From the NCBI GenBank assembly GCA_017307355.1, contig JAFKFG010000013.1, forward strand, positions 1 through 64,000: a stretch of DNA of 64,000 nucleotides. The letters run 5' to 3'. This stretch comes from Alphaproteobacteria bacterium (GTDB lineage: Bacteria; Pseudomonadota; Alphaproteobacteria; Micropepsales; Micropepsaceae). Positions 31,892 through 36,067 of this stretch are shown here, piece after piece. Positions within the stretch are counted from its first letter, which is position 1. Each line of letters opens with the position of its first letter. The notes below the pieces were generated by a model that worked only from the letters and a program-made list of their open reading frames with translations, ran no database searches and had not been told where the DNA came from. The position numbers and the translations under genes are program-made.

Positions 31892-31965
31892 GGCCACGTG
31901 GCGGAATGGTTACGCAGAGGACTGCAAATCCTTGCATCCCGGTTCGATTCCGGGCGTGGCCTCCA
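31892..31965 (+). tRNA. tRNA-Cys (anticodon GCA)
   Basis: 74 bases with encoded CCA. Acceptor GGCCACG pairs with CGTGGCC. The anticodon stem AGGAC surrounds loop TGCAAAT, giving anticodon GCA. The T arm CCCGG-TTCGATT-CCGGG is perfect. The D loop contains the expected GG-like AATGGTTA. Confidence 0.97.
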
Positions 31966-32278
31966 CGCTTTTTCGCGATTTGAGTTGCCGTTGTTTGGGG
32001 CCACGATCAGCCCGTCGCGCGGACCGGCATAAAAATCGCTCTTGCGACCTATTTTCGAAATTTTGCCCGCGAATCAGCCTGGTTAAGTCTTTGTTAACCC
32101 TGGATCGGCATCATGCGGGGGTCTTCCTTGAAGACACCCCACCATTACCCAACGCCTTGGGGCCGGGCTTACCCCCGGCCTCATTTTTTTGTGCCCGGCG
32201 CGGCGCAAAATGCCGCGAATGCCTGGAAAAATTTGTGCTGGTCTTGGGCAAGGGGACGCGCTAGACACCCCGCCTCGT
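31966..32278. other. Intergenic stretch between tRNA-Cys and tRNA-Asn with two stem-loops
   Basis: No convincing protein gene is seen in these 313 bases. The first half is featureless, with an A/T-rich patch around 32030-32100. The second half has a hairpin at 32117-32140 (GTCTTC-CTT-GAAGAC inside GGGG/CCCC with one bulge). A 20-base pyrimidine/A-rich linker (ACCATTACCCAACGCC) follows, then a terminator hairpin at 32161-32190. That order is what a short Hfq-binding small RNA would look like. Confidence 0.5.
32161..32190 (+). terminator. Rho-independent terminator of an unidentified rightward transcript
   Basis: GGCCGGG (32161-32167) pairs with CCCGGCC (32174-32180), followed by TCA and a run of seven T (32184-32190). 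It lies over 190 bases beyond tRNA-Cys, so it may end a small RNA and not the tRNA. Confidence 0.65.
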
Positions 32279-32353
32279 TCCTCGGTAGCTCAGTGGTAGA
32301 GCAACCGGCTGTTAACCGGTTGGTCGCTGGTTCGATCCCGGCCCGGGGAGCCA
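32279..32353 (+). tRNA. tRNA-Asn (anticodon GTT)
   Basis: 75 bases with encoded CCA. Acceptor TCCTCGG pairs with CCGGGGA (one T-G pair). The anticodon loop CTGTTAA between CCGG arms gives GTT. D arm GCTCAGTGGTAGAGC and T loop TTCGATC are canonical. It marks the left edge of the accessory region. Confidence 0.97.
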
Positions 32354-32380
32354 TTTATTTACAACGGCTTATGCCTTTAG

Positions 32381-32412
32381 TGCCCCAGTTCCAGCTGGGG
32401 CATTTTGTTTTT
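32381..32412 (+). terminator. Rho-independent terminator after tRNA-Asn
   Basis: TGCCCCAG (32381-32388) pairs with CTGGGGCA across a six-base loop TTCCAG, followed by TTTTGTTTTT. A strong intrinsic terminator 27 bases beyond the tRNA. Confidence 0.85.
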
Positions 32413-32446
32413 GGGCAACGCTTGGGGCAACAGCGAGCATATTTCG

Positions 32447-33031
32447 ATGAATGAGATAGTTAGCGCCCTGATCGAGCACGGCGCCGAGTTTGCGATTCTC
32501 GATCCGGCATTGAGAGCGGCTGGCAAAGCTGGACTGGAGATCGCGAAGGACATCATCGGTCCCCAGCGCCTGGACGAGATAACGGGCACATTCGAACGAG
32601 CCCGGGAAAAGCTGAGGCGCAGAAAAGTTGAGCCCAGGCAACCGCCCCTAACGGTGCTGATCCCCCTTTTGGAAGCTGCTCAAGACGAGAATCGAGACGA
32701 GCTGAGAGAAATCTGGGCATCCCTTCTGGCCGCCGCCGCGGACCCCACCCGCACATCACACTTTCGGCGTGAATTCATCGATATCGCAAAACAGCTGGAT
32801 CCGATCGACGCGCTGGTATTGAAAGCTCTCGCTCCGCTCCAAGGATCATATAAGCCGAGCCGGCTTATGCACATCATCGCCGGCCTCGAAATTTCGCGGG
32901 ACGATGTCATGGTTAGCTTCGGCAGGTTAGCGACATTGAGATTGGCGACGGAGTTCAACAATAGTGGAGTTGAGCACAATCCTGAGCTGGATACGCTCGG
33001 CCGACTTTTTATGAAAGCGATCGCTGACTAA
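32447..33031 (+). CDS. DUF4393/Abi-alpha-like protein (candidate phage-defence protein)
   Basis: 194 residues, starting at ATG 32447 (MNEIVSALIEHG). An N-terminal helical part with AGKAGLEIAKDIIGPQRL precedes a basic linker. The conserved-looking core PLLEAAQDENRDELREIWASLLAAAADP then SHFRREFIDIAKQLDPIDALVLKAL (about 80-145) closely resembles the Abi-alpha (DUF4393) pattern, in which Abi stands for abortive infection. The biochemical role of the family is not settled. It is the first gene after tRNA-Asn and its terminator, reading away from the tRNA. Assignment is by recalled pattern only. Confidence 0.6.
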   Translation: MNEIVSALIEHGAEFAILDPALRAAGKAGLEIAKDIIGPQRLDEITGTFERAREKLRRRKVEPRQPPLTVLIPLLEAAQDENRDELREIWASLLAAAADPTRTSHFRREFIDIAKQLDPIDALVLKALAPLQGSYKPSRLMHIIAGLEISRDDVMVSFGRLATLRLATEFNNSGVEHNPELDTLGRLFMKAIAD

Positions 33032-33101
33032 TGGTGCCTGGGCGCTACCGTCACGGTATCGGTTGGCAAGCGCCAGAATTTCACATCGAAAGGAATTCAA
33101 A

Positions 33102-33326
33102 ATGAAGCATTTGAAGGCTGATGAGCTAGTTCGGATCGTAGCGGCGGGCGGCGGGATGAAAATAGATTCCCGGCTACACTCTCCTGACGACCTTACAAGA
33201 ATTGCGGCTGCGGCTTCTGGCAAAAAAGCCCATATCCATTTTTCGAATTGCGTGTGGTTGACTGTGGACCAACTGACCCGCATCGCGGCTGCCGGACAGG
33301 GCGCCGTCTTCTTTTCTGCGGATTGA
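33102..33326 (+). CDS. 74-residue protein with three internal repeats
   Basis: ATG 33102 is preceded by AAAGGA. The sequence is built from three units of about 25 residues: DELVRIVAAGGGMKIDSR, DDLTRIAAAASGKKAHIHFS and DQLTRIAAAGQGAVFFSAD. Each pairs an L-x-R-I-A/V-A-A helix with a short beta strand after a Gly turn. This is a small alpha/beta solenoid resembling leucine-rich repeats. No family is named. It sits between the Abi-alpha-like gene and the broken SRAP gene and has its own ribosome-binding site. Confidence 0.65.
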   Translation: MKHLKADELVRIVAAGGGMKIDSRLHSPDDLTRIAAAASGKKAHIHFSNCVWLTVDQLTRIAAAGQGAVFFSAD

Positions 33327-33337
33327 CGCAATAGGGC

Positions 33338-33730
33338 TTGCTCTTCGCCAGCACCCGAGCCTACGGTTCTGACCGAGGAGTTATTTCCCATCTGCGATCG
33401 GGAGATTGGCTCGCCCATAAAAAGACGACAATCGCTCACATCTGGCGAAAATTCGAGATCGAGGGTGCTCCGACGCCATTCTATGCGTGCGTGATGGTCC
33501 CCGTGCCAGCGAACAAATTGATCGCCACCCTTCCCGCCGACCGGATGCCGGCCGTACTAGATCCCTCAGATTGGGCGAAATGGATTGGCGAGGAACCGGA
33601 CTCGGTCGACGAGCTCAAGGCGATGTTGAAAACGGTAGAAGGTGTTAATTGGCACATGCGCAGGGAAGAAAGGTCAGCTAAAGCACCGCGCGGAAAACCA
33701 ACCACTTCAAATCCCGGCGACCTTTCGTGA
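33338..33730 (+). pseudogene. C-terminal remnant of a SRAP (YedK/HMCES-like) protein
   Basis: SRAP proteins bind abasic sites in single-stranded DNA through an N-terminal Cys2 and use a catalytic His near the end. Here only the C-terminal third is recognisable: ACVMVPVPANKLIATLPADRMPAVLDPSDWAKWIGE aligns with the TTxANxLxxxIHxRMPxIL...WL core. The N-terminal half, including MCxR, is absent; the frame begins at a TTG in unrelated sequence. The His of HxRMP is replaced (ADRMP). It is therefore very probably non-functional as a SRAP enzyme. The basic tail RREERSAKAPRGKP is common in this family. Confidence 0.6.
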
Positions 33731-33732
33731 CA

Positions 33733-34500
33733 ATGGACAAGCCCGACACTATCGACCGCCGCGTAAATAAAGTTGCGGCCTATGCTACCGCTTTGGCGGC
33801 AAAATATCTTACTGCGCGTCGAAAGCTTGCAACGGTCACCCCGATGATGGAGCGCGACCTCGCGTCAATTTTCGACAACTCCTATGGCGCTCACATCTTC
33901 ATCGATCTTCGGCTAACGCTGACAATCGACTTGGTTCGGGACTTATGGGCGTTCATTTTCGACGGAGATCCGCGGGCTCCGAGCCTCAAGAATGTTTGGG
34001 GAATGATACAGAATCCTGAACTCTTGGGCGCTCTTCGGGAGCGTCACGGCGCGCCGATTAGCGGAACGGATTCATTGGATGAAGGAGATTGGACGCAAGA
34101 AGAGATTGAGATCTGGAGGGATCTATGGGCCGAAAGCGACAGGTCCCGCCAAGGCGCTGCTTTTGATGACGCATACCGTCGAATTTCGGAGGCGCTACCG
34201 AATTTACTCTCCTCAGATCGTGCGGAGCGGTTGAAGCGAGCACGCAGCAAGGCTATTGCGCATTACGAGATGAAAGCCACAAAAACTGGCGCGGAGCTTC
34301 ATAATTTGTCCGACGTCGGGCTAAAAATGCATGATGCACGCCTTTTCATGGAAGAGATCGACCCCATCATATGGGACGTCGTCCTGCTGGCTACCTGGGG
34401 CAGCTATGACGTCAGCGGGTTTGAAAATCGAGACAAGCTCTATGTCGCGGATTTTTGGTCGCGCCTTCAAGGCAAGGGCCCGATCAAAGAAATCGAGTAA
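33733..34500 (+). CDS. HEPN/AbiU2-like protein (candidate abortive-infection effector)
   Basis: 255 residues, mostly helical. Core features: HIFIDLRLTLTIDLVRDLWAF in the N-terminal half, then ERLKRARSKAIAHYEMKATK (about 170-190) and LHNLSDVGLKMHDARLFMEE. RSKAIAH is an R-x5-H arrangement at a helix end, as in HEPN ribonuclease domains of the AbiU2 type (R...AHYE/AHFD). I chose ATG 33733 over the GTG two codons upstream. It lies directly behind the SRAP remnant. The HEPN call rests on the motif and helix layout; activity is not shown. Confidence 0.55.
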   Translation: MDKPDTIDRRVNKVAAYATALAAKYLTARRKLATVTPMMERDLASIFDNSYGAHIFIDLRLTLTIDLVRDLWAFIFDGDPRAPSLKNVWGMIQNPELLGALRERHGAPISGTDSLDEGDWTQEEIEIWRDLWAESDRSRQGAAFDDAYRRISEALPNLLSSDRAERLKRARSKAIAHYEMKATKTGAELHNLSDVGLKMHDARLFMEEIDPIIWDVVLLATWGSYDVSGFENRDKLYVADFWSRLQGKGPIKEIE

Positions 34501-34518
34501 GAACGGTGTTCAATAGCC

Positions 34519-34758
34519 CTATCCTGGAATTGACCACCACCCGCGATCGTTAATTGCCGGTGTGATGCCATGCTTCTTGAAATGGGCCTCCAGGAGCGGT
34601 TTGCCCGGAACGATCCCGTCCCAATTTGACGATCTGCATGTTTCGCAGATCGGCGCATTAGCCCATTGTGGCACCGGCTGAATGGGATAGCGACCACCAC
34701 CGACTTCCTTAGTCGCGTATGTGTGTCCGCAGACGAGGCATTGATAGCCTTCGCTCAT
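34519..34758 (-). CDS. Small zinc-ribbon protein
   Basis: 79 residues. Two Cys pairs, CLVCG (about 7-11) and CETC (about 38-41), can hold one zinc. The first is rubredoxin-like (YQCLVCGHTY) but the second is not. The rest is Pro/Gly-rich with no known domain. Its ATG overlaps the stop of the upstream membrane-protein gene (ATGA), so the two are a coupled pair. Confidence 0.6.
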   Translation of the reverse strand: MSEGYQCLVCGHTYATKEVGGGRYPIQPVPQWANAPICETCRSSNWDGIVPGKPLLEAHFKKHGITPAINDRGWWSIPG

Positions 34759-35039
34759 TTGTCCCTTTGCATGATCGTCATCATTTCCATCATGCGGCGC
34801 TCGATCTTGCCGAAGAGGCTGATGACGAAGCCGATACCGATTAAGCCCGTCCCCAATGATGAAAAGAACGACGAAACTCCGATCGCTGACAGGCCGCCTC
34901 CAGCAGCGGCGATCATGCCGATCGCCAGGGCGACGGCCCCCAAAGCGTAAAAAAATCCCGCGCCGCCAATCCTTTGCGGTTCGATCTTTATCGGCTTTGG
35001 CTGGATTGATGCGGTGCCGCTATTGCTTGTCTCTTCCAT
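34755..35039 (-). CDS. 94-residue membrane protein coupled to a zinc-ribbon protein
   Basis: ATG 35039 has GGGGAA upstream. A polar N-terminus (about 30 residues) leads to two hydrophobic helices, FFYALGAVALAIGMIAAAGG and SLGTGLIGIGFVISLFG. The short cytoplasmic-type tail KIERRMMEMMTIMQRDK follows. No family is recognised. The pair reads leftward, divergent from the membrane-anchored gene at 35154; the 114 bases between hold both promoters. A zinc-ribbon partner suggests a sensor or regulatory role, which is only a guess. Confidence 0.6.
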   Translation of the reverse strand: MEETSNSGTASIQPKPIKIEPQRIGGAGFFYALGAVALAIGMIAAAGGGLSAIGVSSFFSSLGTGLIGIGFVISLFGKIERRMMEMMTIMQRDK

Positions 35040-35153
35040 GAGTTTCCCCAAATTCCCAAGAACGGTATATGCCAAATTCACGCTATTGAAAATTGGGTTG
35101 CGGGCTTACAACCTGGAGCATTGCTGGGCTATCGAAGCTAGGCCGGAGGGGGA

Positions 35154-36032
35154 ATGCTGCCGACTGATATCGGACGCCACATTCGGAAGATGCGTGACCG
35201 CCATACAGGTGAGTCCTTTTGGAATTTTAAGGCATCGCATGTAGCGGAGGTGATGATCGCGCTGGCATTGCTCGGCGTCACCGTGGGCCAACTTTGGGTA
35301 TCCAGCAACCAGGCTTCGATAATGGAGACCCAGAACAAGATCGTGGCCCGCCAGCTCGATGCGACCCGTGCGGTTGAAAGAGCATCGGTCAGCGTCACCG
35401 ATTTGAAGATCACTCCGGAAGCGATAGGACGGGACCAAAACGCCTCATTCGCGATCATGGCAACCGCAAAGAACAGCGGTCATACGGCAACCAGAGACAT
35501 GACTTCGCGCTACATGATGTCGAGGTACATGAGAAATCAGGTCTCTGCGCCATTCTATGGGATGGATTCAGGTCTAGATCCCGCGACTTACAACCTGATT
35601 CCCGTCAAATCGCGGCTCGGCGCAAACGAGGCAATTCCTATCGGCACAAACGGAAAGGCCAATGGCACGATCAATGGCGACCTCAATCTGGTGAATGGCG
35701 AAGTCGAATGGATGGCCGATAATATTCAGCAGGTTTTTTACGCCGGCGTCATTCACTATCGGGACGTTTTTGAAGGTACCCCAGAGCACCTGACCAAATT
35801 TTGTTTTGTTATTGGTGCGAGGCGGCCGGTCAAGGGCGCCCCCGCCGTGCCTTACAATGCGGGTTCCTGCCCCCACTGGAATTGCGCTGATGAAGAATGC
35901 AAATCCGATGAAATCGATTTTTATGAAGAGCTGAAGTCGGCTTATGAGCGGTCGAAAGTGCCGGTCCCTTCCGCGCTATTGCAGAAGATTCAACAGCTAT
36001 CGCGGTCTCGGACGGTCAACCCTGCGAAATAA
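35154..36032 (+). CDS. Membrane-anchored protein of unknown function
   Basis: 292 residues. A short basic N-terminus, then one membrane helix VAEVMIALALLGVTVGQLWV (about 30-49), a coiled segment ASIMETQNKIVARQLDATRA and a soluble beta-rich domain containing NSGHTATRDM. CPHWNCADEEC near the end (about 241-251) could bind metal. The layout, a signal anchor followed by a domain with an N-S-G-x-T/TPA-like strand, resembles small extracytoplasmic proteins found scattered in proteobacterial accessory regions. It is the last gene before core metabolism resumes at 36068. Confidence 0.6.
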   Translation: MLPTDIGRHIRKMRDRHTGESFWNFKASHVAEVMIALALLGVTVGQLWVSSNQASIMETQNKIVARQLDATRAVERASVSVTDLKITPEAIGRDQNASFAIMATAKNSGHTATRDMTSRYMMSRYMRNQVSAPFYGMDSGLDPATYNLIPVKSRLGANEAIPIGTNGKANGTINGDLNLVNGEVEWMADNIQQVFYAGVIHYRDVFEGTPEHLTKFCFVIGARRPVKGAPAVPYNAGSCPHWNCADEECKSDEIDFYEELKSAYERSKVPVPSALLQKIQQLSRSRTVNPAK

Positions 36033-36067
36033 AATCCTCTTCGAACGCCTTTCGGGCCTTAGAGCCG

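Follow-up and report, generated by a model that had tools for sequence, protein, structure and literature searches.

A predicted three-repeat alpha/beta mini-solenoid of phage protein cluster PHROG 27431 with self-matching helices, encoded in an acquired islet and among mobile elements of diverse bacteria

The islet and its genes

The window analysed for the current report is a stretch of 64,000 nucleotides from an alphaproteobacterial contig, in which an acquired islet of ~3.7 kb and lower G+C content (32361..36066) follows a tRNA-Asn (GTT) gene that was identified with ARAGORN (32279..32353, + strand) and is the site of insertion. The site is empty in the relative G064, which has 59 bp where the window has 3706 bp and in which an oxidoreductase gene lies directly after the same tRNA-Asn; the G+C content of the window after the tRNA-Asn gene is 0.54-0.56, as compared to 0.64 on both flanks. 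The window was also searched for a repeat of the tRNA end that might mark an att site, and none was found. The interval between tRNA-Cys and tRNA-Asn (31892-32353) seems to vary in length within the genus, with the matches lying ~5 kb apart in the genome G047 and ~2.6 kb apart in G068, and the tRNA pair therefore looks like a hot spot for insertion.

The Abi_alpha, repeat, SRAP and HEPN_AbiU2 genes of the islet are all carried on the + strand. The earlier note on this DNA had placed a small repeat gene beside Abi-like genes, and these neighbours proved to be real: an Abi_alpha (DUF4393) abortive-infection protein is encoded upstream (32447..33031; PF14337, E 2.7e-19; PADLOC PDC-S47, E 5.2e-9) and a HEPN_AbiU2-type protein downstream (33727..34500; PF18734, E 2e-11). 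The Abi_alpha gene ends ~70 bp before the repeat gene (33102..33326), and between the latter and the HEPN_AbiU2 gene lies a C-terminal remnant of a truncated SRAP (YedK-type) gene (33338..33730), which matches PF02586 (E 5e-8) at profile positions 129-203 of 214 only. An Abi_alpha of Enterococcus, a DUF4393 prophage protein, is reported to bring about premature lysis of infected cells (PMC6356687). The remainder of the islet (34519-36032) contains a zinc-ribbon-like ORF of 79 aa, a membrane ORF of 108 aa with a weak DUF4282 match (E 0.012) and an ORF of 292 aa without matches. Inspection by eye of the gap between the Abi_alpha and repeat genes (33032-33101) detects short inverted repeats, TACCG-TCA-CGGTA inside GGCGCT...AGCGCC, that are not followed by a T run.

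The repeat gene and its predicted product

The repeat gene is present in a single copy in its own genome and in 1 of the 69 genomes searched of its genus. Its ATG start codon (33102) is preceded by a sequence resembling a ribosome-binding site (AAAGGA), its stop codon is at 33324-33326 and its product is 74 aa long. The three repeat units have the helix segments LKADELVRIVAA (residues 4-15; 33111..33146), followed by GGG and a strand at residues 19-22; HSPDDLTRIAAA (residues 26-37; 33177..33212), followed by a longer loop and a strand at residues 45-48; and LTVDQLTRIAAA (residues 53-64; 33258..33293), followed by GQG and a strand at residues 69-71. The best ungapped triple of 12-residue segments in the protein scores 116, a value that was reached in 0 of 300 shuffles of its residues (mean 20.1, maximum 47). 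The three L-x-R-I-A-A-A repeats that had been read from the sequence are exact in two units, whereas repeat 1 has LVRIVAA, with V in place of one A.

An AlphaFold2 model built from an alignment of 15 sequences is confident (mean pLDDT 94.5, pTM 0.83) and predicts helices at residues 6-14, 28-41 and 55-65 and strands at 19-22, 45-48 and 69-71. This order, H-E-H-E-H-E, bears out the helix-turn-strand units and the compact repeat protein that the earlier note had proposed. The model of a distant relative from Lachnospiraceae, L029 (14 sequences), has the same H-E order (pLDDT 91.3, pTM 0.77). A disordered structure without homologues that keep the repeats had been named as the outcome that would speak against a mini-solenoid; what we find is a confident predicted fold and relatives that retain three units. 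An artefactual ORF can be ruled out, since the ORF is kept as a repeat protein by homologues in four phyla.

Comparisons of the predicted fold with known structures yielded likenesses in outline. Foldseek searches against the PDB and viral structures returned nothing at E <= 0.001, and the best E values of sequence searches against the PDB, 0.071 for the window protein and 1.8 for the family profile, are both taken as chance. For both models the best match by VIA-align was the de novo designed protein T11 (8kc8), at Z 6.5 (rmsd 2.3, 69 residues aligned) and Z 5.7 (rmsd 2.6, 68 aligned), but this protein is artificial, has 227 residues and matches at Z values below 8, which may reflect a common arrangement alone. 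The predicted strand-helix units of ~25 residues are reminiscent of alpha/beta leucine-rich repeats (LRR), and the LRR chain of LegL7 (3goz) matched the two models at Z 3.8 (rmsd 2.7, 71 aligned) and Z 4.2 (rmsd 2.5, 67 aligned); LRR chains as a group, however, score at Z 3.6-4.2 and are tied with many unrelated alpha/beta enzymes. The family differs from LRR proteins in its motif, L-x-x-I-A-x-A-G, and in having three units only, and no curated LRR sequence profile was matched by the window protein or occurred among the 23 families weakly matched by 20 members. On the strength of the models, the protein would be LRR-like in outline and is not classed as an LRR protein.

A family within PHROG 27431 and its distribution

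No curated family fits the window protein in searches with Pfam, NCBIfam and PADLOC profiles, and Pfam searches over 20 members gave 23 scattered, weakly matching families, of which the best (Rho_N, E 2.6e-4) was matched by 3 of the 20. The suggestion that the protein belongs to no described family thus stands for the curated collections, but an uncharacterised phage cluster already holds it: residues 5-71 match positions 6-74 of the 75 positions of the phrog_27431 profile (E 1e-19), a full-length match to a profile of the same size, and the profile matches 20/20 aligned members. PHROG 27431 is a computed cluster of phage proteins without an assigned function, and it already contains the family; new here are the distribution of the family over plasmids, integrons and defence islets and the self-matching of its helices. 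Literature searches by sequence motifs and by the PHROG number did not find the family, and none of the wider listings on integron cassettes, pKPN7, KwaA/KwaB and solenoids in defence names it.

We collected 23 members (L014 and L016 counted once) from Pseudomonadota (Alpha-, Beta- and Gammaproteobacteria), Myxococcota, Planctomycetota and Bacillota, the sources including one myxobacterium, metagenome-assembled genomes (MAGs) of a planctomycete and a member of the Lachnospiraceae, and viral contigs. Excluded as chance or unusable matches were L003, L004 and L005 (weak matches within frames of 350-797 aa), L020 (a partial match with a stop) and L035 (a permease). The gene is rare and patchy across bacteria: solid matches were found in 3 of 398 whole genomes sampled across the phylum, with its own genome included and one partial match with a stop left out, and in 3 of 390 whole genomes of one order, with a permease left out. 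No match was obtained for the window protein and L021 among 50,697 phage records, for the DNA of the Klebsiella module among E. coli genomes, or for the member of genome G377 (see below) and its KwaB among plasmids; further scans of the viral contigs with other sub-alignments returned the same loci or nothing.

The settings of the members comprise small plasmids, the vicinity of phage terminase genes, arrays of integron cassettes and defence islands. In Klebsiella and Enterobacter, small ColRNAI plasmids carry the repeat module as the C-terminal part of a larger DnaD_N/HTH_36 protein; the fusion gene (L006:2238-2915) is divergent from mazEF, and the protein of pKPN7 (module, DnaD_N and HTH_36 together) has 225 residues. 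In Shinella (L011:5464-6210) and on the viral contig L015 (7377-8231) the repeat gene is adjacent and divergent to the gene for a terminase small subunit. An attC site next to the gene, the mark of integron cassette cargo, was found in two relatives: the planctomycete member (L025) has the attC-like sequence GCCTAAC-58-GTTAGGC just downstream, and the Rheinheimera member (L031) belongs to an array of attC-like sites, with a z of -3.98 for the DNA hairpin. A strict attC pattern found no site at the window gene, and the same pattern also missed the Rheinheimera array. The Rheinheimera protein (L031:5983-6123) is only 46 residues long and has two units, which in sequence seem to correspond to repeats 1 and 3, the middle repeat having dropped out.

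Defence genes of several kinds occur near these members. In G377 (L019 / L041:10279-11709) the repeat gene lies directly upstream of the genes for KwaA (E 3.5e-76) and KwaB (E 1.2e-107), in an island that also has PDC-M21A/B; the planctomycete locus has a PDC-S06 neighbour (E 2.8e-268), and the viral contig L017 encodes an MTase_II and an SspD-like protein nearby. Weaker matches were recorded near L024 (6.7e-11) and L028 (6.4e-7). Counting strong matches only, a defence-type neighbour was present at 4 of the 17 loci for which chosen neighbours were scanned (those of the window, G377, L025 and L017), a figure that applies to chosen neighbours and stands without a background rate, so that the association of the family with defence is suggestive only. 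Despite its position directly upstream of kwaAB in G377, the gene does not have KwaA/KwaB as a constant partner: kwaAB lies beside 1 of the 17 loci with PADLOC-tested neighbours, and no Kiwa gene was detected among the seven scanned proteins of the window islet or the tested neighbours of the other loci. When 1036 ORFs located up to 6 kb from 22 loci were clustered, no widely recurring partner emerged; the neighbours that did recur were an unrelated LysR pair and MazF, the latter at two loci (that of the Klebsiella plasmid and that of P. sabiae). Neither Abi_alpha nor the HEPN-like neighbour, whose synteny with the repeat gene the earlier note had thought worth following, recurs among these 22 loci.

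Helices that match within each protein

The helix segments were compared in 19 proteins as 12-mers that run from -5 to +6 relative to the helix Leu (position 0). Left out of these statistics were the members from Chromobacterium (start of repeat 1 disrupted), Rheinheimera (two repeats) and P. hiiakae (truncated), as well as the near-duplicates Enterobacter and L016. The helices of one protein are 78.5% identical to each other, as compared to 49.9% when repeats are dealt randomly among the proteins (0/2000 shuffles reach the observed value) and 48.2% for the same repeat in different proteins. The effect persists in a thinned set of nine proteins that are <55% identical (0.682 vs 0.407, 0/2000 shuffles) and in the seven of these nine that do not have VRIAAA (0.651 vs 0.368, 0/2000 shuffles). 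The window protein, with a helix identity of 0.58, is among the least self-similar members. The most homogenised positions are -2 (0.667 within proteins vs 0.173), -1 (0.877 vs 0.362), +1 (0.789 vs 0.207) and +2 (0.825 vs 0.461); the residues at 0 and +3, which are common to the whole family, exhibit little additional likeness within proteins, and +4 exhibits none.

The strands (+10 to +13) show the reverse of the helix pattern. Those of repeats 1 and 3 are 5.3% identical within a protein, which is at the level of chance (0.053 vs 0.038 when shuffled, with 1467 of 5000 shuffles reaching 0.053), while strands of the same repeat are 36.2% identical between proteins. It follows that the identities of the three repeats predate the split of the lineages. 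Independent triplication in each lineage is ruled out because the strands hold their repeat-specific identity across lineages. It is only the helix segment that is kept in step within a protein, whereas the strands keep a repeat-specific sequence.

At the codon level, 204 of 490 pairs of the same residue use identical codons, as compared to 182.3 expected from local codon usage (Endozoicomonas was left out of this test, the flanks of its locus being masked). Most lineages are thus close to saturation, and, since the pooled value is little above chance, recent gene conversion does not explain most of them. Two lineages depart from this pattern, L017 (23/34 identical codons vs 12.9 expected) and L026 (24/36 vs 12.3 expected), and there recombination may contribute to the homogenisation.

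Possible function of the self-matching helices

The reading that we prefer, and regard as plausible, is that the protein works on its own as a trivalent module for binding proteins and travels with mobile elements as accessory cargo; we assign it a probability of roughly 0.45. A binding module was also one of the two roles that the earlier note had suggested. Within-protein likeness of the helices in lineages that bear no mark of recent gene conversion leads us to infer selection for three matching outward faces. Judged from helix geometry, the family-common residues at 0, +3 and +4 (L, I and A) would form the core and the homogenised positions would lie on the outer face of each helix. Three similar binding faces would then stand side by side, where they could engage a partner that is repetitive or oligomeric, or serve self-association, and each lineage would retune all three together as its partner changes. 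Given the mobile settings and the defence neighbours, the module most likely acts in phage-host conflict, and its partner might then be a phage structure, an oligomer from a defence system or a further copy of the module.

The same likeness of the helices might instead serve the protein internally. Helices packed side by side might have to match for folding, for example with D, E or Q at -1 paired with an R at +2 in the neighbouring helix, and any ligand would then be bound by the variable face of the sheet. Positions -1 and +2 are indeed among the most homogenised, and the G377 protein, alone among the members in having D at +2, carries R at +5 of all three repeats, which looks like a coordinated change of charge; but -2 and +1 are homogenised just as strongly and are not obviously needed by such a packing ladder, and we consider this explanation somewhat unlikely. 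That gene conversion or unequal exchange copies helix segments within the gene, with no functional need for identical faces, is more doubtful still. The excess of identical codons in L017 and L026 and the apparent loss of repeat 2 in Rheinheimera are consistent with such exchanges, but pooled codon identity is near expectation, the strands of repeats 1 and 3 are no more alike within proteins than by chance, and conversion tracts would need to end at the strands in every lineage.

An antidote module had been suggested in the earlier note, and another possibility is that the protein is an antidote to, or regulator of, the adjacent Abi_alpha or HEPN_AbiU2 protein. Its small size, its position close behind Abi_alpha on the same strand and the presence of MazEF near the members of the Klebsiella plasmid and P. 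sabiae would suit that role. The comparison of loci does not support it, however, for MazF at two of the 22 is the only toxin that recurs, no toxin family is found at more than two, and neither Abi_alpha nor HEPN neighbours recur; moreover, Abi-alpha of Enterococcus is reported to give its phenotype as a single gene (PMC6356687). We regard an antidote as improbable.

If the binding-module reading is followed further, the fusion to DnaD_N/HTH_36 in one plasmid family would fit a portable part for sensing or assembly. A bolder and unlikely extension is that the family represents an undescribed class of mobile recognition protein, in which one short helix code is repeated in three units and changes in step as a whole, such that the protein would either target repetitive assemblies of phage or defence origin or self-assemble by code, and in which plasmids would convert recognition into regulation by fusing the module to DNA-binding domains. 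The family is in any case a natural, single-domain repeat protein of 70 residues with a readable rule, one helix code per protein and different codes in different proteins, and it provides a clean natural case of repeats within one gene whose protein sequences remain similar as their codons diverge. Should the rule reflect binding, code swaps could reveal the target, and the family would be a new small player in loci of phage-host conflict.
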